Assembly: GCF_009789075.1 (NCBI RefSeq)
Contig: NZ_WNXQ01000003.1
Span: forward strand, 372,001-436,000
Reading direction: 5' to 3'
Source: Pseudooceanicola pacificus
Lineage (GTDB): Bacteria > Pseudomonadota > Alphaproteobacteria > Rhodobacterales > Rhodobacteraceae
DNA length: 64,000 nucleotides
In this document: positions 15,816-53,998 of the stretch, in pieces
How the letters are laid out: each line of letters begins with the position of its first letter
Numbering within the stretch: position 1 is the stretch's first letter
Program-made: the position numbers and the translations under genes
Notes under the pieces: model-generated
What the model was told of the DNA's origin: nothing
The model's input: the letters and a program-made list of their open reading frames with translations, nothing else
The model's database searches: none

Positions 15816-17222
15816 TCAGCAGCTGTAGTACATCGCGTATTCGACCGGGTGCGGCGTGTGCTCGTACATCTCGATCTCGTCCATTTTCAGGGCGATGTAG
15901 CCTTCGATCTGGTCCTTGGTGAACACGTCGCCGGCCAGCAGGAAGTCCATGTCCTTCTGCAGCTCGTCCAGGGCCTCGCGCAGCGAGCCGCAGACGGTCG
16001 GGATGTCGGCCAGCTCCTCGGGGGGCAGGTCGTACAGGTTCTTGTCCATGGCAGGGCCCGGATCGATCTTGTTCTTGATGCCGTCGACACCGGCCATCAT
16101 GAGGGCCGCAAACGCCAGGTAGGGGTTTGCCGAGGGATCGGGGAAACGCGCTTCGACGCGCTTGGCCTTGGGCGATTCCGACCACGGAATACGCACGCAG
16201 CCCGACCGGTTCCGTGCCGAATAGGCGCGCAGGACCGGGGCTTCGAAGCCGGGGATCAGGCGCTTGTACGAGTTGGTTCCGGGGTTGGTGAAGGCGTTGA
16301 GCGCCTTGGCGTGCTTCAGGATGCCGCCGATGTACCACAGCGCCTCGTCCGACAGATCGGCATATTTGTCACCTGCGAAGAGCGGCTTGCCGTCCTTCCA
16401 GATCGACATGTTCACATGCATGCCGGTGCCGTTGTCGCCCTTGATCGGCTTCGGCATGAAGGTCGCCGACTTGCCATAGGCCTGGGCCACGTTGTGGATC
16501 ACGTACTTGTACTTCTGGATCTCGTCGGCCTGCTTGGTCAGCGTGCCGAAGATCAGGCCCAGCTCGTGCTGGCACGAGGCTACTTCGTGGTGGTGCTTGT
16601 CGACCTTCATGCCCATGCGCTTCATGGTGGAGAGCATTTCCGAACGCAGGTCCTGCGCATCGTCCACGGGGTTGACCGGGAAATAGCCGCCCTTGACGCC
16701 GGGACGGTGGCCGGTGTTGCCCATCTCGTAGTCGGTGTCGGTGTTCCACGCGCCGTCCAGCGCGTCGACCTCGTAGGAGACCTTGTTCATCGAGACGGCG
16801 TATTTGACGTTGTCGAAGATGAAGAATTCGGCTTCCGGACCCATGAACGCGCTGTCGCCCACACCCGAAGAGATCAGGTAGGCTTCGGCCTTCTGGGCGG
16901 TGCCGCGCGGGTCACGCTCGTAGGGTTCGCCGGTGTCGGGTTCCACGACCGAGCAATGGATGCAGATCGTCTTTTCAGCGTAGAACGGGTCGACATAGGC
17001 GCTTTCGGTGTCGGGCATCAGTTTCATGTCCGATGCCTCGATCGACTTCCAGCCCTCGATCGACGAGCCGTCGAACATGAAGCCTTCCTCAAGGAAGTCA
17101 GCGTCGACCTGGTCGGACATCACGGTGACGTGCTGCAGCTTGCCGCGCGGGTCGGTGAAGCGGATGTCGACGTATTCGGCACCCTCGTCCTTGATAAGCT
17201 TCAAGAGCTTCTCTGTGCTCAT
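15816..17222 (-). CDS. glnA: Glutamine synthetase type I
   Basis: Makes glutamine from glutamate, ammonia and ATP. It is the main ammonium assimilation enzyme, a cytoplasmic dodecamer. 468 residues starting [19 protein letters not shown]. The glutamate and ATP signature regions are present ([53 protein letters not shown]). The adenylylation tyrosine is Y397 in [10 protein letters not shown], so activity should be controlled by GlnE. The start at 17222 is preferred over 17252 because AAGGGAA precedes it. It lies 30 bp downstream of glnB on the same strand, forming the usual alphaproteobacterial glnBA operon. Confidence 0.98.
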
Positions 17223-44990: not shown

Positions 44991-45371
44991 TTACTTTTCG
45001 CAGAACAGCTCGTAAACCAGTTCCAGCATCCGGCGCGGCTTGTCGTCGGCCAGCCGGTAGTAGATCGCCTTGCCCTCGCGCCGGGGCACGACCAGCCCCT
45101 CAAGCCGCAGGCGCGACAGCTGCTGCGAAACGGCGGCCTGGCGGGCGGAGAGTAGCTCTTCCAGCTCGGTCACCGATTTCTCGCCCGAGACCAGGTGGCA
45201 CAGGATCATCAGCCGGCCCTCGTGGCTGACCGCCTTGAGGAAATTCGAGGCCCGCGTCGCGTTGTCCACGAAACGGTCCATATCCTCGTCGCTCAGATTC
45301 TTGTCGAGTACCGGTATGCTCATATGTCCGTCGATTGCGTCGCCCGGGTCCAGTTTTCGAAGTTCAGTCAT
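44991..45371 (-). CDS. soxR: SoxR, ArsR-family sulfur-responsive repressor
   Basis: 126 residues if started at MTELRKLDPGD (45371). A start at 45323 (MSIPVLDKN) gives 110, closer to some homologues, and neither has a strong ribosome site. It has a winged helix with recognition region SARQAAVSQQLSRLRLEGLV (about 75-94). Two cysteines, C58 in MILCHLV and C124 in ELFCEK, occupy the places where SqrR/BigR/SoxR proteins form an intramolecular persulfide or tetrasulfide bridge. This bridge releases them from DNA. The gene should therefore repress sox genes until reactive sulfur appears. Sites matching its expected ATTC-N8-GAAT operator occur in the sox intergenic regions. Confidence 0.9.
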   Translation of the reverse strand: MTELRKLDPGDAIDGHMSIPVLDKNLSDEDMDRFVDNATRASNFLKAVSHEGRLMILCHLVSGEKSVTELEELLSARQAAVSQQLSRLRLEGLVVPRREGKAIYYRLADDKPRRMLELVYELFCEK

Positions 45372-45430: not shown

Positions 45431-45796
45431 CTAGCTGCCGCCTGAAAGGGCGCCGCGTTCGGCCAGCATCTTTTCCAGCAGGCCCCAGAAGAAGTCCTCT
45501 CCCGGGTAGCCCTCGATCCGCCCGACCTCGCGGCCAGCGTCGATCAGCAGGAAGGTGGGGGTGAACAGGACCGGGCGGGCATAGGTCACGCCCTCGGGCG
45601 GATCGGCGCGCAGGTCGACACGGTGCAGGGGCGCGGCGGCGCCGGCCTCGGTCTTGGGGTAGATCGGGGCGATCGCCCTGTCCCAGGCGGCGCAGTAGAC
45701 GCAGCCGTCCTGTTCCACCATCAGCAGTTCCAGCGCGCGGGTGGGCAGGGCCCAGAGGCCCGTCATTGCAGCCAGCGCCAGAAGTGTCATTCGCAT
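45431..45796 (-). CDS. soxS: SoxS, periplasmic thioredoxin-like protein
   Basis: 121 residues with an N-terminal signal peptide (MRMTLLALAAMTGLWALP, cut near TRA-LE). The thioredoxin fold has the redox motif DGCVYCAAW (CxxC, about 31-34), and VLFTPTFLLID carries the expected cis-proline. In Paracoccus, SoxS keeps the SoxY carrier cysteine reduced and reactivates SoxYZ. Gene order soxS, soxR, soxT on the minus strand, divergent from soxV across 72 bp, resembles the classical arrangement. ATG at 45796 or 45790. The ribosome site is weak. Confidence 0.88.
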   Translation of the reverse strand: MRMTLLALAAMTGLWALPTRALELLMVEQDGCVYCAAWDRAIAPIYPKTEAGAAAPLHRVDLRADPPEGVTYARPVLFTPTFLLIDAGREVGRIEGYPGEDFFWGLLEKMLAERGALSGGS

Positions 45797-45807
45797 GCGA
45801 GACCCGG

Positions 45808-45835
45808 TTGACCTTTGTTCAACGCTCAACATAAT
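45808..45835 (+). promoter_or_regulatory. Predicted sigma-70 promoter of soxVW
   Basis: TTGACC (45808-45813) and CATAAT (45830-45835) are separated by 16 bp. They match the consensus hexamers at five of six positions each. This is the clearest promoter in the window, and it ends inside the candidate SoxR site. Confidence 0.6.
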
Positions 45836-45851
45836 TTGAATGTGTGAATTC
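45833..45851. promoter_or_regulatory. Candidate SoxR operator, soxS/soxV gap
   Basis: AATTT-N8-GAATTC, one mismatch from ATTC-N8-GAAT. It overlaps the -10 element of the predicted soxV promoter, as a repressor site should. The SoxR-bound site in this gap of Pseudaminobacter is the known precedent. Confidence 0.55.
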
Positions 45852-45868
45852 TTCAAGGGAGGGGAGCG

Positions 45869-46609
45869 GTGCTTGAGATAACCTATCTCGGGGCCGTCGT
45901 CGCGGGGGTGCTGTCGTTCTTCACCCCCTGCATTCTGCCGATGGTGCCCTTCTACCTGTGCTACATGGCCGGGCTGTCGATGTCGGAACTGCGCGACGAG
46001 GGGGCGGCCATCGCCCCGGGGGCGCAGCGGCGGCTGGTGCTGTCCTCGGTCTTCTTCGCGCTTGGGGTGACCACGATCTTTGTCCTGCTCGGCATGGGGG
46101 CCACGGCGCTTGGCCAGACCTTCGCCCAGTGGAAACAGCCGCTGAGCTGGGTCGCGGCGGCGGTCCTGCTGCTCTTTGGCCTGCATTTCCTGGGCGTTGT
46201 GCGGATCCCGATCCTTTACCGCGAGGCGCGGATCGAGGCACCGGGCCGGCCGACCACCGCCGCCGGGGCCTATGTCATGGGGCTGGCCTTCGGCTTTGGC
46301 TGGACGCCCTGCGTGGGCCCGGCGCTGGCCTCGATCCTGATGGTGGCCAGCGGCATGGGCGACATCGCCCGCGGCGGGCTGCTGCTGCTGGCCTATGGCC
46401 TGGGGATGACCGCGCCCTTCGTGGTGGCGGCCCTGTTCGCCCGGCCGTTCCTGGGCTGGATGGCGCGCAACCGGGGGCTGATGAAACATGTGGAAAAAGT
46501 GATGGGTGCCATGCTCATCCTCTTTGCCGTACTGATTGCAACCAACAGCGTGAACCTGATCGCCGATGCGCTGATCCGCTGGTTCCCCGCGTTCACAAAC
46601 CTTGGCTGA
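45869..46609 (+). CDS. soxV: SoxV, CcdA-type membrane electron carrier
   Basis: 246 residues from a GTG start (MLEITYLGAVVAGVLSFF), with GGGAGGGGAG upstream. It has six hydrophobic helices. The two redox cysteines characteristic of CcdA/DsbD-beta are in FFTPCILPMVPFY (about 17-29) and FGWTPCVGPALAS (about 148-160). It moves electrons from cytoplasmic thioredoxin across the inner membrane to SoxW. It is the first rightward gene of the sox cluster, driven by the predicted promoter at 45808-45835. soxW follows 19 bp later. Confidence 0.95.
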   Translation: MLEITYLGAVVAGVLSFFTPCILPMVPFYLCYMAGLSMSELRDEGAAIAPGAQRRLVLSSVFFALGVTTIFVLLGMGATALGQTFAQWKQPLSWVAAAVLLLFGLHFLGVVRIPILYREARIEAPGRPTTAAGAYVMGLAFGFGWTPCVGPALASILMVASGMGDIARGGLLLLAYGLGMTAPFVVAALFARPFLGWMARNRGLMKHVEKVMGAMLILFAVLIATNSVNLIADALIRWFPAFTNLG

Positions 46610-46628
46610 GGCCGGAAAGGATGCTGCC

Positions 46629-47195
46629 ATGAAACCCCTCCGTTATCTTGCCGCCGCCCTGATGCTGGCGGGGACCGGTGCCGGTGCCGTCACGATGGGT
46701 GACGACGGGCTGCACAAGGCGCCCTGGATGCGCAACACCTTCAAGGACCTGCGCGAGGACCTGGCCGAGGCCACCGCCGACGGCCGCCGCCTGATGGTGA
46801 TCGTCGAGCAGCGCGGCTGCATCTACTGCACCAAGATGCACGAGGAGGTGTTTCCCGCCCCGGCCATCGACTCGCTGCTGCGCGAGAAGTATTTCGTTGT
46901 TCAGATCAACATGTTCGGCGATGTCGAGGTGACCGATTTCGACGGCGAGACGCTGTCCGAGAAGCAGGCGGTGCGCAAGTGGGGCCTGCTTTTCACCCCG
47001 ACGATGATGTTCTTCCCCGAGGAGGTCCCCGACGAGGTGCCCGCCAGCCGCGCCGCCGTGGCGATCATGCCCGGCGCGTTCGAGAAGGGGACGACGCAGG
47101 ATCTGCTGACCTGGGTGCTGGAAAAGGGCTATGATCTGGAAGAGCCGTTCCAGAAATACCACGCCCGCAAGCTGGAAGAGCGCCGCTCTCAGTAA
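46629..47195 (+). CDS. soxW: SoxW, periplasmic thioredoxin
   Basis: 188 residues from ATG 46629 (MKPLRYLAAALMLAGTGAGA), with AAAGGA upstream. A signal peptide precedes a mature start near VTMGDDG. The thioredoxin CxxC is in EQRGCIYCTKMHEEVF (about 61-76), and LLFTPTMMFF (about 122-131) carries cis-proline. SoxW takes electrons from SoxV and keeps Sox components reduced. It is also CcmG-like in fold. It is the last gene before the 247-bp gap that contains the next SoxR site. Confidence 0.93.
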   Translation: MKPLRYLAAALMLAGTGAGAVTMGDDGLHKAPWMRNTFKDLREDLAEATADGRRLMVIVEQRGCIYCTKMHEEVFPAPAIDSLLREKYFVVQINMFGDVEVTDFDGETLSEKQAVRKWGLLFTPTMMFFPEEVPDEVPASRAAVAIMPGAFEKGTTQDLLTWVLEKGYDLEEPFQKYHARKLEERRSQ

Positions 47196-47347
47196 CGCGC
47201 TGGCCGCGGGATCGGGGAGCGCAGCGGCGGGGCCGGACAAAGGCGGGACCGGATGATTTGCATCCGTCCTGCGGGTATCGTAACGCCAAGGCAGGGCGTC
47301 CTGCCGTTCCGCAGCCCGGAGCCGGCGGAAATTGCTGCAGTGCAGAT

Positions 47348-47367
47348 AAATTCACGTTAATGAATTT
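47348..47367. promoter_or_regulatory. Candidate SoxR operator, soxW/soxX gap
   Basis: AAATTC-N8-GAATTT, an exact inverted repeat with six-base half-sites, 76 bp before the soxX start. It contains ATTC-N8-GAAT. In Pseudaminobacter, SoxR binds in the soxW-soxX gap, so location and sequence agree. Confidence 0.7.
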
Positions 47368-47442
47368 GATGTTGCGTTGCGGTGTGCGACTGGATACCAA
47401 TTGAGGGAAACCGGGGTCCGCGCCCGGGGACAGGGAGGAAAG

Positions 47443-47919
47443 ATGAGGATCACAGCTATCACGCTTGGCATCACGGCGCTGGCCGCCGGTGCGGCGCTGG
47501 CCGACCCGGTCGAGCCGATGAGCGTCAAGTACGACGACTATGGCGCGATCGAAACGTCGCTCTCGGGGATGCCCGGCGATGCCGTCGAGGGCAAGAAGGT
47601 GATGTCGAGCCGTGGCCTGGGCAACTGCGTGGCCTGTCACGAGGTCTCGGCCCTGGCCGACGTGCCCTTCCAGGGCGAAATCGGCCCCTCGCTGGACGGC
47701 GCGGGCGATCGCTGGAACGAGGCCGAACTGCGCGGCATCGTGGCCGATGCCAAGAAGACCTACGATGGCACCATGATGCCGTCGTTCTACAAGACCAGCG
47801 GCTATATCCGCCCCGGCAACGCCTTCACCGGCAAGGCGGGAACCGAGCCTTTGCCGCCGCTGCTTACAGCACAGCAGATCGAGGACGTGGTGGCCTTCCT
47901 GCTCACCCTGAAGGATTGA
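47443..47919 (+). CDS. soxX: SoxX, monohaem cytochrome c
   Basis: 158 residues from ATG 47443 (MRITAITLGITALAAGAALA, signal peptide cut before DPVEP), with AGGGAGG upstream. Haem c motif CVACH is at 62-66. MM at 111-112 in GTMMPSF supplies the axial methionine. The C-terminal helix is LTAQQIEDVVAFLLTLKD. With SoxA it forms the complex that oxidatively joins thiosulfate to SoxY cysteine. First gene of the soxXYZABCD set. Confidence 0.96.
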   Translation: MRITAITLGITALAAGAALADPVEPMSVKYDDYGAIETSLSGMPGDAVEGKKVMSSRGLGNCVACHEVSALADVPFQGEIGPSLDGAGDRWNEAELRGIVADAKKTYDGTMMPSFYKTSGYIRPGNAFTGKAGTEPLPPLLTAQQIEDVVAFLLTLKD

Positions 47920-47949
47920 GCGGGCGCGGCCCCTGACAAGGAGACGAGA

Positions 47950-48369
47950 ATGGATTTCACACGACGCGATACACTGGCCCTGGGCCTTGGCGCCGCGGCT
48001 ATGACCGTCCTGCCGTTCCGCGTGAACGCGGCGGCCACCGATGATCTGATCGCCGAATTCACCGGCGGGGCCGAGATGGGCGCGGGCGGGCTGACCCTGA
48101 CCGCCCCGGAAATCGCCGAGAACGGCAACACGGTTCCGATCTCGGTCGATGCCGAGGGCGCGACCGCGATCATGGTGCTGGCGACCGGCAACCCGACGCC
48201 GCCGGTGGCCACCTTCAACTTCGGTGAACTGGCCGGCAGCCAGTCCGCCTCCACCCGTATCCGGCTCGCCGGGACGCAAGAGCTGATCGCCATCGCCAGG
48301 ATGAGCGACGGCAGTTTCCAGCGCGACAGCAAGACCGTGAAGGTCACCATCGGCGGCTGCGGCGGCTGA
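47950..48369 (+). CDS. soxY: SoxY, sulfur-carrier subunit
   Basis: 139 residues. The N-terminus MDFTRRDTLALGLGAAAMTV is a Tat signal with RR, consistent with export of a folded SoxYZ dimer. The C-terminus ends GGCGG with C137, the swinging-arm cysteine on which thiosulfate sulfur is carried through the cycle. SoxY lacks a Tat-independent partner signal, and SoxZ is co-exported. Four genes, soxX-Y-Z-A, are spaced by about 24-30 bp. Confidence 0.97.
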   Translation: MDFTRRDTLALGLGAAAMTVLPFRVNAAATDDLIAEFTGGAEMGAGGLTLTAPEIAENGNTVPISVDAEGATAIMVLATGNPTPPVATFNFGELAGSQSASTRIRLAGTQELIAIARMSDGSFQRDSKTVKVTIGGCGG

Positions 48370-48393
48370 TCGGCGAGAGAGAGGAACAGGACC

Positions 48394-48723
48394 ATGGCAG
48401 ACAATGTCAAACCCCGGGTGAAGGCACCCAAATCCGCTTCCGCCGGCGAGGTCGTCACCATCAAGACGCTCATCAGCCACCAGATGGAAAGCGGCCAGCG
48501 CAAGGACAAGGACGGCAACAAGATCCCGCGCTCGATCATCAATCGCTTCACCGCCGAGTATAACGGCCAGATGGTGATCGACGTGACGATGGAGCCCGCG
48601 ATCTCGACCAATCCGTACTTCGAGTTCGACGCCACCATCCCGGAAGCGGGCGAATTCAAGTTCACCTGGTATGACGATGACGGCTCCGTCTACGAGGACA
48701 GCAAGGCCGTGTCGGTCGCCTGA
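48394..48723 (+). CDS. soxZ: SoxZ, sulfur-carrier partner
   Basis: 109 residues starting MADNVKPRVKAPKSASAGEV. An immunoglobulin-like beta sandwich with LISHQMESGQRKDKDGNKIP (about 25-44), NRFTAEYNGQ, FDATIPEAGEFKFTWYDDDGS and the last strand. No signal peptide, as expected for the partner that rides out with SoxY by Tat. It binds SoxY and presents its GGCGG arm to SoxXA, SoxB and SoxCD. Confidence 0.97.
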   Translation: MADNVKPRVKAPKSASAGEVVTIKTLISHQMESGQRKDKDGNKIPRSIINRFTAEYNGQMVIDVTMEPAISTNPYFEFDATIPEAGEFKFTWYDDDGSVYEDSKAVSVA

Positions 48724-48753
48724 CGGCCGCACATCCAGGGAGGAGTAACCAAG

Positions 48754-49611
48754 GTGAACAAAACAACAGCAAGCCGGCTCGCACTGACCCTCGTCCTGTC
48801 CTTCGGGGCGGGGGCCGCGCTGGCCGATGAGAACGCCGACCTCGTGGTCAACGAAGAGATCGAAATGACTGTCCGGGCCCCGGCCCCCGCCTATCTGGAC
48901 GGCCACCTGCCCGAGATCCTGTCGGGCTGGCTTTTCCGGTCGGACGAGACGCAGGACCTGCAGCGCGACGATTTCGACAATCCCGGCATGATCTTCGTCG
49001 ACCAGGCGTTGGACCAGTGGGCGATGGTCGATGGCTCCGAGGGCAAGAGCTGCGCCTCGTGCCATGACGATCCCGCCGACAGCATGGCCGGTGTCCGCGC
49101 GGTCTATCCCAAGTGGAACGCCGATGCCGGCGAGGTGCGCACCCTGGCGATGCAGATCAACGACTGCCGCGAGACCCAGATGGGCGCCAAGAAATGGGGC
49201 TATACCAGCGGCGACATGACCGCGATGGAGGCCCTGATCTCGGTCCAGTCGCGCGGCATGCCGGTGAATGTCGCCATCGACGGTCCCGTCGCCGCGACAT
49301 GGGAGCAGGGCAAGGAGATGTACTATACCCGGTACGGTCAGCTCGAACTCTCCTGCGCGAATTGCCACGAGGACAATTACGGCAACCACATCCGCGCCGA
49401 CCACCTGTCCCAGGGCCAGATCAACGGCTTCCCGGTCTACCGGCTGAAGAACACCAAGCTCAACGCGGCGCATGACCGCTTCAAGGGCTGTGTGCGCGAC
49501 ACCCGGGCGGAAACCTTTGACCCCGGTTCGCCGGAATTCGTGGCGCTTGAGCTTTACGTCGCCAGCCGCGGCAACGGTCTCTCGGTCGAGGCGCCTTCGG
49601 TCCGGAACTGA
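48754..49611 (+). CDS. soxA: SoxA, dihaem cytochrome c
   Basis: 285 residues from a GTG start (MNKTTASRLALTLVLSFGAG, signal cut before DENAD), with AGGGAGGAG upstream. Two haem motifs, CASCH (100-104) and CANCH (201-205), identify the dihaem subclass. C246 in KGCVRDTRAET is the active-site cysteine that ligates the second haem as cysteine persulfide. It pairs with SoxX. Position in the cluster and length match Paracoccus SoxA. Confidence 0.97.
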   Translation: MNKTTASRLALTLVLSFGAGAALADENADLVVNEEIEMTVRAPAPAYLDGHLPEILSGWLFRSDETQDLQRDDFDNPGMIFVDQALDQWAMVDGSEGKSCASCHDDPADSMAGVRAVYPKWNADAGEVRTLAMQINDCRETQMGAKKWGYTSGDMTAMEALISVQSRGMPVNVAIDGPVAATWEQGKEMYYTRYGQLELSCANCHEDNYGNHIRADHLSQGQINGFPVYRLKNTKLNAAHDRFKGCVRDTRAETFDPGSPEFVALELYVASRGNGLSVEAPSVRN

Positions 49612-49723
49612 TCGCGGGGCCTGAACTTCGCTTCGCAACCAATTGAGAACAGGCTGAAAAGCCGATCCCCTTCCGCCCCGTGCGGGAGGGGGCGCAGACC
49701 CCGCTTGCCCAGGAGCATGCCAG

Positions 49724-51421
49724 ATGATCTCCCGCCGCGATTTCCTCCAGGTCTCGATGGCCGCCGCGTCTCTCTACGGCGCCTCGGGCTTTGGCCACTG
49801 GTCCCGCCTTGCCGCGCAGCAGGCGCTGACGCAGGACGACCTGCTGCGGTTCGACACCTATGGCAATGTCTCGCTGATCCACATCACCGACATCCACGCA
49901 CAGCTGAAACCGATCTATTTCCGCGAACCCGAGGTCAACATCGGCGTCGGCGCCAACAAGGGCCAGGTGCCGCATCTGACCGGCGCCGATTTCCGCAAGT
50001 TCTATGGTATCGCTGATGGAAGTCCGTCCCATTACGCGCTGACCTACAACGATTTTTCCGCGCTGGCCAAGGGCTATGGCAAGATGGGCGGGCTGGATCG
50101 CATGGCCACGGTGATCGACGCCATCCGCGCCGACCGCCCCGATGCGCTGCTGCTGGACGGGGGCGACACCTGGCACGGCTCGATGACCTGCTACAAGACC
50201 GCCGGGCAGGACATGGTCAACGTGATGAACGCGCTCAAGCCCGACGCGATGACCTTCCACTGGGAATTCACCCTCGGCTCCGACCGGGTGGCCGAGATCG
50301 TCGAGGGCCTGCCCTTTGCCGCGCTCGGGCAGAACATATTCGACGCCGAATGGGACGAGCCGGCCGAACTCTTCAAGCCCTACGAATGGTACGAATCCGG
50401 CGGGGTCAAGATCGCCGTGATCGGCCAGGCCTTCCCCTATATGCCGATTGCCAACCCCGGCTGGATGTTCCCCGAATATACTTTCGGCATCCGCGACGAG
50501 CACATGCAGGAGGTGGTCGACGAGGTCCGCGCCCAGGGGGCCGAGCTGGTTGTCTGCCTCAGCCACAACGGGTTCGACGTCGACAAGCGCATGGCGGGCA
50601 TCGTCAAGGGCATCGACGTGATCCTGTCGGGTCACACCCATGACGCGCTGCCCGAACCGGTGCTGGTGGGCGAGACGGTGATCGTGGCCTCCGGCTCCAA
50701 CGGCAAGTTCGTCAGCCGCGTGGACCTTGATGTGCGCGACGGGCGGATGATGGGCTTCCGCCACAAGCTGATCCCCGTCTTCTCGGATGTGATCGCGCCC
50801 AAGGCCGAGGTCACGGCCCTGATCGACGCACAGCGCGCGCCCTACGAGGGCGAGTTGAGCGAGGTGATCGGCCAGACCGAAAGCCTGCTTTACCGCCGCG
50901 GCAATTTCAACGGGTCCTGGGATGACCTGATCTGCGACGCCCTGCTGTCCGAACGCGAGGCCGAGATCGCGCTGTCGCCCGGCGTCCGCTGGGGCCCGTC
51001 GCTGATCCCCGGGCAGGACATCACGCGCGAGGATATCTGGAACGTCACCTCGATGAGCTATGGCGAGGCGTATCGCACGGAAATGACGGGTGAATTCCTG
51101 AAGGTGGTGATGGAAGACGTGGCCGACAACATCTTCAACCCCGACCCCTATTACCAGCAGGGCGGCGACATGGTCCGCGTTGGCGGGCTGGGCTACCGCA
51201 TCGACGTCAGCAAGAAACAGGGCGAGCGGATCACCGACATGGTGCTGCTGAAGACCGGAGAGCCGATCGACCCCGCCCGCAATTACGTCGTGGCCGGCTG
51301 GGCCAGCGTGAACGAGGGCACCGAAGGGCCGCAGATCTGGGATGTGGTCGAAAGCCACATCCGCAAGCTGGGCACCGTCCGGCTGGACGACAACACCAGC
51401 GTGACCGTCACCGGGACCTGA
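49724..51421 (+). CDS. soxB: SoxB, dimanganese sulfate thiol hydrolase
   Basis: 565 residues. The Tat signal MISRRDFLQVSMAAASLYGA has RRDFLQ. The calcineurin-like metallophosphoesterase domain carries ligand motifs HITDIHAQLKP (about 55-65), LLLDGGDTWHGS (about 143-154), TFHWEFTLGSDR (about 175-186) and LSGHTHDALPEP (about 302-313). A 5'-nucleotidase C-terminal domain follows. It hydrolyses the sulfone group from SoxY-bound thiosulfate as sulfate. It is preceded by a 112-bp gap that holds no operator-like site. The following soxB/soxC gap does hold one. Confidence 0.97.
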   Translation: MISRRDFLQVSMAAASLYGASGFGHWSRLAAQQALTQDDLLRFDTYGNVSLIHITDIHAQLKPIYFREPEVNIGVGANKGQVPHLTGADFRKFYGIADGSPSHYALTYNDFSALAKGYGKMGGLDRMATVIDAIRADRPDALLLDGGDTWHGSMTCYKTAGQDMVNVMNALKPDAMTFHWEFTLGSDRVAEIVEGLPFAALGQNIFDAEWDEPAELFKPYEWYESGGVKIAVIGQAFPYMPIANPGWMFPEYTFGIRDEHMQEVVDEVRAQGAELVVCLSHNGFDVDKRMAGIVKGIDVILSGHTHDALPEPVLVGETVIVASGSNGKFVSRVDLDVRDGRMMGFRHKLIPVFSDVIAPKAEVTALIDAQRAPYEGELSEVIGQTESLLYRRGNFNGSWDDLICDALLSEREAEIALSPGVRWGPSLIPGQDITREDIWNVTSMSYGEAYRTEMTGEFLKVVMEDVADNIFNPDPYYQQGGDMVRVGGLGYRIDVSKKQGERITDMVLLKTGEPIDPARNYVVAGWASVNEGTEGPQIWDVVESHIRKLGTVRLDDNTSVTVTGT

Positions 51422-51447
51422 CCCGGGGCGGCTTTTTTTGCCATATC

Positions 51448-51465
51448 CATTCACACCTGTGAATG
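51448..51465. promoter_or_regulatory. Candidate third SoxR operator, soxB/soxC gap
   Basis: CATTCACA-CC-TGTGAATG, a perfect 8-bp inverted repeat with two central bases, containing ATTC-N8-GAAT. It lies 28 bp before soxC and 27 bp after soxB. It is the most symmetric of the three candidate SoxR sites, and I know of no report of SoxR binding in this gap. Confidence 0.6.
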
Positions 51466-51492
51466 CGGTGATCTGAAAGGAGGCGAAATCCA

Positions 51493-52758
51493 ATGAGCGA
51501 CCACAAGGCAGAGAGCCCGACGCGGCGCGCCTTCCTGCAGGGCGCGGCGGGCGGGGCGGCGATGCTTGCGGCCGGGCCGGGCCGGGCCGAAGGGGGCGAT
51601 CCCCTGATCACCGAGGTCCAGCCCTGGGCCAACGGCTTTGGCGATGGTGTCGACGCCACGCCCTATGGCCTGCCCATCGAGTACGAGGCCGACGTGATCC
51701 GCCGCAACGTGCCCTGGCTGACGGCCGATCCGATATCCTCGATCAACTTCACCCCGATCCATGCGCTGGACGGCACGATCACCCCGCAGGGCTGCGCCTT
51801 CGAGCGTCACCATTCCGGCGCGATCGAGTTGCGGAAAGAGGATTATCGTTTGATGATCAATGGCCTGGTGGACACTCCTCTGGTGTTTACCTACGCCGAT
51901 CTGGAACGGTTCCCGCGCCAGAACCACGTCTATTTCTGCGAATGCGCGGCGAATACGGGCATGGAATGGGCCGGTGCCCAGCTGAACGGCGCCCAGTTCA
52001 CCCACGGCATGATCCACAACATGGAATATACCGGCGTTCCCCTGCGCACCCTGCTTGAAGAAGCTGGCGTAAGTCCCGAAGGAAAATGGATTTATGTCGA
52101 AGGCGCCGATGCGTCGTCCAACGGGCGCTCGATCCCGATGGACAAGGCGATGGACGATGTCCTGGTGGCCTTCAAGGCCAATGGCGAGGCGCTGCGCAAG
52201 GAACATGGCTATCCGGTGCGCCTTGTCGTGCCCGGCTGGGAAGGCAACATGTGGGTCAAGTGGCTGCGCCGGATCGAGGTCGGGGACCAGCCCTGGGAAA
52301 GCCGCGAAGAGACGTCGAAATATACCGACACCCTCGCCGACGGCACCAGCCGCCGGTTCACCTGGGTGATGGATGCGAAATCCGTGATCACCTCGCCCTC
52401 GCCGCAGGCGCCGATCACGCATGGGCATGGTCCGCTGGTGATCACCGGGCTGGCCTGGTCGGGCCACGGGGCGATCAAGCGGGTCGACGTGTCCAAGGAC
52501 GGCGGCAAGACCTGGGAGACGGCGCGCCTGGCGAAACCCGGTGAAACCAAGGCCCTGGCGCGCTTCTACCTGGATACCGAGTGGAACGGCGAAGAGATGC
52601 TGCTGCAATCCCGCGCGATGGACGAGACCGGCTATGTCCAGCCGACCAAGGCCATGCTGCGTGCAGTGCGGGGCGAGAATTCGGTCTATCACAACAACTG
52701 CATCCAGACCTGGTGGGTCAAGGACAACGGGGAGGCCGAGAATGTCGAAGTCTCTTAA
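51493..52758 (+). CDS. soxC: SoxC, molybdenum subunit of sulfane dehydrogenase
   Basis: 421 residues starting MSDHKAESPTRRAFLQGAAG, a Tat signal with RRAFLQ. GAAAGGAGG lies upstream. It is a sulfite oxidase-type molybdopterin enzyme. VYFCECAANTGMEWAGAQ contains the molybdenum-ligating Cys, expected at C151, and C149 lies two residues before it. A C-terminal dimerisation domain has GHGPLVITGLAWSGHGAIKRVDVS. With SoxD it oxidises the remaining sulfane sulfur on SoxY by six electrons, which makes the pathway complete to sulfate without sulfur globules. Its 3' end overlaps soxD by 17 bp. Confidence 0.96.
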   Translation: MSDHKAESPTRRAFLQGAAGGAAMLAAGPGRAEGGDPLITEVQPWANGFGDGVDATPYGLPIEYEADVIRRNVPWLTADPISSINFTPIHALDGTITPQGCAFERHHSGAIELRKEDYRLMINGLVDTPLVFTYADLERFPRQNHVYFCECAANTGMEWAGAQLNGAQFTHGMIHNMEYTGVPLRTLLEEAGVSPEGKWIYVEGADASSNGRSIPMDKAMDDVLVAFKANGEALRKEHGYPVRLVVPGWEGNMWVKWLRRIEVGDQPWESREETSKYTDTLADGTSRRFTWVMDAKSVITSPSPQAPITHGHGPLVITGLAWSGHGAIKRVDVSKDGGKTWETARLAKPGETKALARFYLDTEWNGEEMLLQSRAMDETGYVQPTKAMLRAVRGENSVYHNNCIQTWWVKDNGEAENVEVS

Positions 52759-53998
52759 ACTTTTCGCCGCTGCGGGCGCGGGCACGGCTGTCGTGCTGGG
52801 CGCCGCGGTCTTCATGGCCGACGGCCATATCGTGCATCCACCCGCCGCCAGCGTGAAAACCGCTGTGCAAGCATTTGATAAAGTGGAGCAATCCACAGAA
52901 GGTCAGGCTGCCGCCGTCGCCACGCAACAACCGGCCGCAGAGGCCGAACCCTCTGGCCTTGTCGCCGCCGCCCATGCCGAAGAGATGCCGGTGCGCAAGC
53001 TGGGCTTGGGCCGGCCTGCGCTGCCCGAGGAAATCGCGGCCTGGGACCTCGACGTGCGCCCCGATGGCCAGGGTCTGCCCGAAGGGTCCGGCGATGTCTG
53101 GACCGGGGACGAGATATTTTCGGAACGGTGCGCCTCGTGCCACGGCGATTTCGCCGAGGGGCGTGGCAACTGGCCCAAGCTGGCCGGGGGCATGGACACG
53201 CTCGCCGACAAGGACCCGCTCAAGACCGTGGGCAGCTACTGGCCCTACCTCACCACGACCTGGGATTATGTCCACCGTTCGATGCCCTTTGGCGACGCGC
53301 AGACGCTCAGCCCCGACGAGGTCTATGCCGTGGTGGCCTATATCCTCTATTCCAACGATATCGTGGACGAGGATTTCACCCTGTCGAACGAGAACCTGCT
53401 CGACATCGCGATGCCCAATGCCGATGGCTTCATCCTCGACGACCGACCGCAGACGGAATATCCGCAATGGACCGGCGAACCCTGCATGGACAACTGCAAG
53501 GACAATGTCGCGATCACCATGCGCGCCGCCGTGCTGGACGTGACGCCGGATGACGGCACCGACGCGGCGGTGGAGGAGGCCAGCGCCGAGGCGGCCGAGT
53601 CACCTGCCGAGGCACCAGCGGCCGCGCCGCAGGACACCGGCGCCGAGGCCCCCGCCGGCGATGCAGCGGCGATCGACATGGCGCTGGCGGGCGAGGGCGA
53701 GAAGGTGTTCCGCAAGTGCAAGGCCTGCCACCAGGTGGGCGAGGGCGCGCAGAACCGCACCGGGCCCGAGTTGAACGGCATTGTCGGACGCACTGCCGGG
53801 GCCATCGACGGGTTCCGCTATTCGCCGGCGATGCAGAAGCTCGCCGATGGCGGCGCGGTCTGGGATGTCGAGGCGCTGCACGGGTTCCTGGCCGATCCCA
53901 AGGGCTATCTGCCCGGGACCAAGATGTCCTTCACCGGCCTCAGGAAGCAGGGCGACCTGGACGCGGTGATCGAATACCTCAAGACCTTCGGCGGCTGA
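52742..53998 (+). CDS. soxD: SoxD, dihaem cytochrome c subunit of sulfane dehydrogenase
   Basis: 418 residues from ATG 52742, inside the end of soxC, so translation is coupled. The N-terminus MSKSLKLFAAAGAGTAVVLG is a signal peptide or anchor. Two haem motifs: CASCHGD (130-134) in the first cytochrome domain and CKACHQ (326-330) in the second. The two are separated by an alanine/glutamate/proline-rich linker (about 270-315). It passes electrons from SoxC to cytochrome c. Not all SoxD proteins have both haems, so the intact second domain is worth noting. It is the last sox gene present: clpP follows, with no soxE-H. Confidence 0.95.
   Translation: MSKSLKLFAAAGAGTAVVLGAAVFMADGHIVHPPAASVKTAVQAFDKVEQSTEGQAAAVATQQPAAEAEPSGLVAAAHAEEMPVRKLGLGRPALPEEIAAWDLDVRPDGQGLPEGSGDVWTGDEIFSERCASCHGDFAEGRGNWPKLAGGMDTLADKDPLKTVGSYWPYLTTTWDYVHRSMPFGDAQTLSPDEVYAVVAYILYSNDIVDEDFTLSNENLLDIAMPNADGFILDDRPQTEYPQWTGEPCMDNCKDNVAITMRAAVLDVTPDDGTDAAVEEASAEAAESPAEAPAAAPQDTGAEAPAGDAAAIDMALAGEGEKVFRKCKACHQVGEGAQNRTGPELNGIVGRTAGAIDGFRYSPAMQKLADGGAVWDVEALHGFLADPKGYLPGTKMSFTGLRKQGDLDAVIEYLKTFGG

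Follow-up and report, generated by a model that had tools for sequence, protein, structure and literature searches.

The sox cluster studied here lies in a window of 64,000 nucleotides of Pseudooceanicola pacificus DNA (positions 372,001 to 436,000 of contig NZ_WNXQ01000003.1; coordinates below are those of this whole stretch), and the element in question is a palindrome between its soxB and soxC genes, at 51448-51465. On the minus strand lie soxR and soxS, followed on the plus strand by soxV-W-X-Y-Z-A-B-C-D. SoxX, SoxY, SoxZ and SoxA (47443-49611, equivalog models), SoxB (49724-51421, TIGR04486) and SoxC (51493-52758, TIGR04555) all score above their NCBIfam cut-offs, and a likely ribosome-binding site of soxC, GAAAGGAGG, is found at 51475-51483. 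The names of SoxS, SoxV, SoxW, SoxD and SoxR come from synteny and similarity. soxS (45431-45796) is an open reading frame (ORF) without an NCBIfam match, named by its position; the DsbD model stays below its cut-off for both the CcdA/DsbD-like soxV (45869-46609) and the soxW ORF (46602-47195), whose true start is perhaps the ATG at 46629 instead of the ORF start at 46602. soxD (52742-53998), with a start assigned in this analysis from the reading frame, overlaps the end of soxC.

SoxR (44991-45371) is an ArsR-family repressor of 126 aa, as judged from structure match, the HTH_metalloreg model of NCBIfam, for which it lies above the cut-off, and alignment of its cysteines. Its best solved relatives are PDB chain 6o8k (4e-35) and 13ct/6o8l-6o8o, all of which we take to be SqrR, and the recognition helix, RQAAVSQQL, is identical to that of 6o8k. 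The BigR equivalog NF040642 gave 94.2 bits, below its cut-off of 155; SoxR is a relative of BigR and not BigR itself. The two sensor cysteines named in the original prediction of SoxR control at this cluster, C58 and C124, were found in the 126-aa reading from 45371 and correspond to cysteine in 136/136 and 133/136 aligned SoxR proteins, respectively.

The SqrR site is deduced as ATTC-N8-GAAT in the available part of PMC9774250. Exact matches to this motif, which the original prediction had placed at soxW/soxX and soxB/soxC, have their cores at 47350-47365 and 51449-51464, and the wider spans are likewise correct: AAATTCA-N6-TGAATTT at 47348-47367 (predicted operator 2) and CATTCACA-CC-TGTGAATG at 51448-51465 (predicted operator 3). 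The predicted soxS/soxV site (operator 1, ATTTGAATGTGTGAAT, 45834-45849) carries one mismatch and shares 2 bases with the -10 hexamer of the putative soxV promoter, TTGACC-N16-CATAAT (45808-45835, plus strand), whose -35-like hexamer recurs at a constant offset in 37/53 aligned loci. The exact motif was observed three times in the whole window, with 0.68 expected, and 3 of 100 shuffles reached that number; the third match, at 16175, is inside an ORF resembling glutamine synthetase. Matches with one mismatch showed no excess over chance across the window (17 vs 13.3), so the soxS/soxV site rests on its overlap with the promoter and on recurrence. A match with at most one mismatch is present in 51/132 soxS/soxV gaps of the family, where shuffling predicts 9.8; the register differs among some of the 51, and only 2/132 are exact. 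By sequence, position and recurrence, all three sites appear to be of the SoxR/SqrR type, as had been claimed, the soxS/soxV site fitting least closely.

The longer form ATTCA-N6-TGAAT occurs at only two sites in 3.89 Mb of the organism's own genome (66.9% estimated completeness), namely those at soxW/soxX and soxB/soxC. Read backwards it was found 0 times in the same 3.89 Mb, a weak control, TA-rich words being probably rare here. A scoring matrix built from soxW/soxX sites gave 28.9 for the soxW/soxX site and 16.1 for the soxB/soxC site of the window, a comparison in which the matrix favours soxW/soxX. We regard the soxB/soxC palindrome as real; a SoxR-type operator is the best interpretation of its sequence.

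To place these sites in context, we surveyed 394 genomes of the GTDB family, 238 of them with SoxC at E <= 1e-80, using 149 neighbourhoods of the best-listed SoxC matches and, later, six more from the genus. The order soxRS-VWXYZABC was found in 120 of the first 150 loci, the window counted in. With gaps of more than 700 bp left out, the exact motif was present in 103/130 soxW/soxX, 37/140 soxA/soxB and 31/147 soxB/soxC gaps, besides the 2/132 at soxS/soxV, and in 0/138 soxX/soxY, 0/141 soxY/soxZ and 0/139 soxZ/soxA gaps, nor was it found in soxV/soxW gaps. Across some 150 family clusters, this strict motif occurred 31 times in 7.55 kb of soxB/soxC gap, whereas 1.05 Mb of sox coding sequence contained 8 matches, a density about 500 times higher in the gaps. 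Similarly, with a matrix built from 101 soxW/soxX sites, the window left out, a score of at least 8 was reached in 32/138 soxB/soxC gaps and in 0/112 soxV/soxW, 0/137 soxX/soxY, 0/141 soxY/soxZ and 0/139 soxZ/soxA gaps; these soxB/soxC gaps are 58-122 bp long, and the match ends 23-34 bases upstream of soxC.

A relaxed motif, ATKC-N8-GMAT, with one base loosened per half-site, was chosen after the soxA/soxB sites were known. It was found in 33/142 soxB/soxC gaps (0.42 expected by shuffling), 109/146 soxA/soxB gaps (0.68 expected), 111/130 soxW/soxX gaps and 2/136 soxS/soxV gaps. All counts quoted use exact or relaxed matches; a looser soxB/soxC count (36 at no more than one mismatch) was discarded, the matches at L046 and L147 lying inside an apparent inserted gene and that at L148 being doubtful. 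Among the fetched loci with a soxB/soxC site, soxR is present in 32/33, and the remaining locus ends at 6.9 kb. The remaining family genomes with SoxC (88, plus G387 repeated) yielded 90 loci, comprising 45 without soxB in the 1.5 kb examined, 2 with gaps above 700 bp and 43 with measured gaps, 4 of which carry the relaxed motif. The soxB/soxC site is thus a minority feature, the frequency of which is overstated by the best-listed set. In a set of 80 named genomes that partly overlaps the survey, the relaxed motif was present in 14/74 measurable soxB/soxC gaps and 64/74 measurable soxA/soxB gaps.

The soxA/soxB gap holds a putative operator of its own, described here for the first time in this analysis and commoner than the soxB/soxC site. 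Its most frequent sequence is ATTCACACATGCGCAT (for example at L033, L047, L058 and L072). The original prediction had identified the soxB/soxC site and missed both this recurrent soxA/soxB operator and the terminator beside the soxB/soxC site. The soxA/soxB gap of the window itself (49612-49723) contains no operator, its best motif score being -26.5. A strong hairpin without a T-run folds there at 49666-49692 (plus strand); the same segment and the operator-less soxA/soxB gaps of L268, L269, L045 and L056 carry a CCCCTTCCGC...GCGGGAGGGG-like repeat, also with no T-run. This repeat is perhaps an mRNA-stabilising hairpin, only the window copy having been folded.

The end of soxB in the window forms a terminator-like structure (51405-51439, plus strand), in which a hairpin at 51405-51431 contains the stop codon of soxB, with C and seven T residues after it; the hairpin folds at -17.2 to -18.3 kcal/mol, and 8 bases separate the T-run from the operator. 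Simple scans missed this hairpin, presumably owing to a bulge, and the terminator rule was widened after it had been folded. Under the wider rule, terminators accompany 9/33 soxB/soxC gaps with the site vs 2/109 without it, and 74/109 vs 6/37 soxA/soxB gaps. The first, simpler rule gave 4/33 (the window not among the 4) vs 2/109 and 78/109 vs 7/37, respectively. A T- or A-tract was present in 22/33 soxB/soxC gaps with the site and in 12/109 without it. The layout of the soxA/soxB boundary is a T-run, about 12 nt, the operator, about 29 nt and the start codon, and that of soxB/soxC is alike. Judged by sequence and fold only, soxCD in the window has a terminator upstream. The sequence of the palindrome, its recurrence, its position, its specificity for the sox cluster and its association with terminators are features of the data themselves.

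Since the hairpin and T7 at the end of soxB precede the operator, soxCD is probably a SoxR-controlled unit of its own. We consider it reasonably probable that the 51448-51465 palindrome serves as a third SoxR operator, marking a transcription-unit boundary and placing soxCD under its own SoxR control. The separate control of soxCD that had been proposed from this site gains from the terminator-like hairpin in front of it, and lacks recognisable promoter hexamers. According to this proposal, transcription of soxXYZAB would stop, at least partly, at the hairpin and T7 that end soxB, and soxCD would start within the soxB/soxC gap, at a site overlapping or adjoining the operator. A SoxR dimer would occupy the ATTC/GAAT half-sites and block soxCD as long as sulfane sulfur is absent; sulfane sulfur derived from thiosulfate would bridge C58 and C124 and release SoxR from soxV, soxX and soxC together. 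In this scheme SoxR binding, repression, the soxCD start site and release by sulfane sulfur are inferred. A boundary of this kind, terminator then operator, may lie at soxA|soxB in most of the related clusters sampled and at soxB|soxC in the lineage of the window.

The further claim that the soxB/soxC site decides between full and partial oxidation of sulfane sulfur found no support. The same motif precedes soxX, so the soxXYZA and soxCD units should answer one signal, and the soxB/soxC site scores below the soxW/soxX site, so that nothing points to a tighter closure of soxCD. With one signal for all three operators, such a switch would require that their thresholds differ, of which no sign was found here. 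If the recurrent internal operators are real, soxB and soxCD, which complete sulfate release and sulfane oxidation, would be separately started in many marine bacteria, suggesting activation of the cluster in distinct segments under common regulation. The series of clusters offers a natural set, with the same kind of boundary at two different genes, and a simple prediction of 5' ends.

Several observations weigh against soxCD being such a unit. No sigma-70 -35/-10 pair was found in the soxB/soxC gap of the window. In the soxB/soxC gaps of relatives, a -35-like hexamer occurs at one offset in at most 8/33, and no -35 is suitably spaced from the -10-like GATGAT (at +18 in 16/33 gaps). Even under the wider rule, a terminator is missing from 24/33 soxB/soxC gaps with the site, and 2 of the 9 terminators are doubtful, the hairpin at L136 containing the operator and the stem at L066 being weak. 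The site is also patchy: it is present in 33/142 gaps of the survey and in 4/43 from the remaining, more distant family members, and it changes at least 23 times on the tree described below. A paralog of SoxR could bind the same motif. Alphaproteobacterial promoters can deviate from consensus. Matches resembling a -10 at position -4 in soxW/soxX gaps were judged to arise largely from A-rich flanks and were not used.

It is the failure to find promoter hexamers at soxB/soxC that makes a roadblock the main rival. SoxR bound at 51448-51465, with no soxCD promoter, would halt polymerase reading through from soxB and trim soxCD under repression, which would account for the lack of a recognisable promoter and for an operator directly 3' of a terminator-like hairpin in the window. 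However, if the terminator works, read-through by itself would give little soxCD expression, and the analogous soxA/soxB boundary, where a terminator is present, needs a soxB promoter and has a similar layout. We judge this explanation unlikely, if still worth weighing. Another ArsR-family protein might occupy the site instead of SoxR, for example the paralog at G000:C5:31891-32199 (L421), an ArsR-type protein with 55% identity in which two cysteines are retained and the recognition helix is almost the same. This is improbable: the motif is common to soxW/soxX within a cluster that bears soxR, soxR accompanies the soxB/soxC site in nearly every locus, as given above, and no match to ATKC-N8-GMAT was found in 3.3 kb around the paralog gene.

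That the repeat acts instead as an RNA hairpin, in stability or attenuation, is still less probable. The window repeat does fold at -9.9 kcal/mol (z -2.8), and the site with 4 flanking bases gave -0.3 to -10.3 kcal/mol over 33 sequences, values obtained without a shuffle comparison. However, the inner pairs 5-12, 6-11, 7-10 and 8-9 are possible in only 24, 17, 7 and 15 of the 33, and a 30-nt composite with the commonest soxB/soxC core, ATTCACATAGATGAAT, gave a fold that did not surpass its shuffled versions (-2.4, z +0.2). We rejected this reading on the ground that the inner pairs are poorly conserved and the outer half-sites recur. A chance palindrome or functionless relic, to which the 109/142 family gaps without a site might point, is the least credible explanation and as to chance is contradicted statistically across the family, 33 sites having been found where 0.42 were expected in 142 shuffled gaps and 0 in four neighbouring gap classes.

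To examine how the soxA/soxB and soxB/soxC sites are distributed, we used a SoxB+SoxC tree of 152 rows, in which the near-matches L039, L157 and L158 were set as present by hand and long soxB/soxC gaps were coded as absent. The soxB/soxC site changes at least 23 times on this tree and the soxA/soxB site at least 12 times. In a 121-row clade that includes the window, picked post hoc after the tree was known, the soxB/soxC site is present in 8/10 lineages lacking the soxA/soxB site vs 13/45 units having it. Without the three hand-set near-matches, the clade gave 7/10 (p 0.026) and all units gave p 0.046; the p values for exchange range over 0.004-0.026 in the clade and 0.02-0.046 over all units. 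An independent-pairs test on supported branches found about 4.7 pairs changing in opposite directions vs 0.2 in the same direction, with a median p of 0.125. These results are suggestive of an exchange of one site for the other and do not prove it. A strict either-or relation is opposed by 19/136 loci with both sites and 22/136 with neither.

The 15 basal rows have neither site (soxA/soxB being unmeasurable in one), and the soxW/soxX motif is present in 6/13 of their gaps. A different binding sequence may account in part for the lack of internal sites there. We can put forward only tentatively, as a reading that could almost as well hold as fail, that a movable boundary of terminator and operator, under SoxR control, divides the roseobacter-type sox structural operon at soxA|soxB or soxB|soxC, one tending to replace the other. 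If so, SoxB would be made together with SoxXYZA in some lineages and with SoxCD in others, all in response to a common sulfur signal.

SoxR reportedly acts at the soxS-soxV and soxW-soxX regions of Paracoccus pantotrophus and Pseudaminobacter salicylatoxidans, in work ascribed to Rother in 2005 and to Mandal in 2007. These proteins belong to the same repressor family as SoxR of the window, which differs from both systems in an additional, predicted third operator before soxC. The original prediction had treated both regions as known; the available part of PMC5748708 cites SoxR binding at soxS/soxV. SoxR binding in promoter-operator segments of sox clusters is also cited in the portion available of PMC10451225. 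In the plasmid loci of P. pantotrophus, P. versutus and P. denitrificans, the motif is absent from the soxA/soxB gaps, from the 22-23 bp soxB/soxC gaps and from the soxW/soxX gap (2 mismatches), so the motif may describe Paracoccus operators poorly. Given this absence and the scarcity of the soxW/soxX motif in the basal rows, the missing internal sites there are weak evidence.

The sulfide-responsive regulators SqrR, BigR and YgaV share the recognition helix and the ATTC-N8-GAAT motif with SoxR of the window; they control other genes, and the available parts of the sources mention no sox operon boundary. SoxR of Hyphomicrobium denitrificans is reported to be released by sulfane sulfur (PMC10451225, PMC12423496, as available in part); within a single shdr-sox locus its target regions number more than two, with 4/5 probes bound in the accessible text of PMC10451225. 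In contrast to the window, the truncated Sox system of that organism lacks SoxCD, and the targets are genes other than soxC. In a Roseobacter strain, thiosulfate induces all sox genes, soxC more than 14-fold (PMC10090131, available part), which agrees with the proposal and does not discriminate. Among the matches listed, titles and abstract openings held no report of a SoxR site at soxA/soxB or soxB/soxC, nor did the available parts of PMC10451225, PMC9774250, PMC12423496, PMC9995734, PMC10090131, PMC5748708 and PMC11582611.

Within Pseudooceanicola, SoxC is encoded in 8/22 genomes. Conservation of the soxB/soxC palindrome in close relatives, to which the original prediction had looked, was found in part: 4 of the 8 have the site, as an exact match in the window and P. 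onchidii and as ATGC-N8-GAAT in two others. Of the rest, two lack it in gaps of ordinary length (25 and 84 bp), and in two soxB and soxC are separated by about 500 bp. The relaxed soxA/soxB site is present in five of these genomes and absent from the window and both ATGC genomes. Two further sites in soxB/soxC gaps, ATTCAATAAGTTGAAT and ATTCAATAATACGAAT (L312 and L313), belong to a divergent member of the family and to a genome from another family of the class.

At L337, L351, L374, L387, L398 and L403, and probably at L046 and L147, an ORF of about 400-450 bp lies between soxB and soxC; it encodes a small protein with a signal-peptide-like start that looks DsrE-like by eye. Downstream of soxD in the window are ORFs resembling clpP and clpX, again by eye. 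The soxW/soxX gap of the window (about 47366-47410) and of relatives contains a conserved TTTGtTGTTGCGT after the operator and, about 18 bases on, TAcggTat; these may be a soxX promoter lying downstream of the operator. The TTTGaTGaT flank that follows soxB/soxC sites resembles the downstream flank at soxW/soxX.

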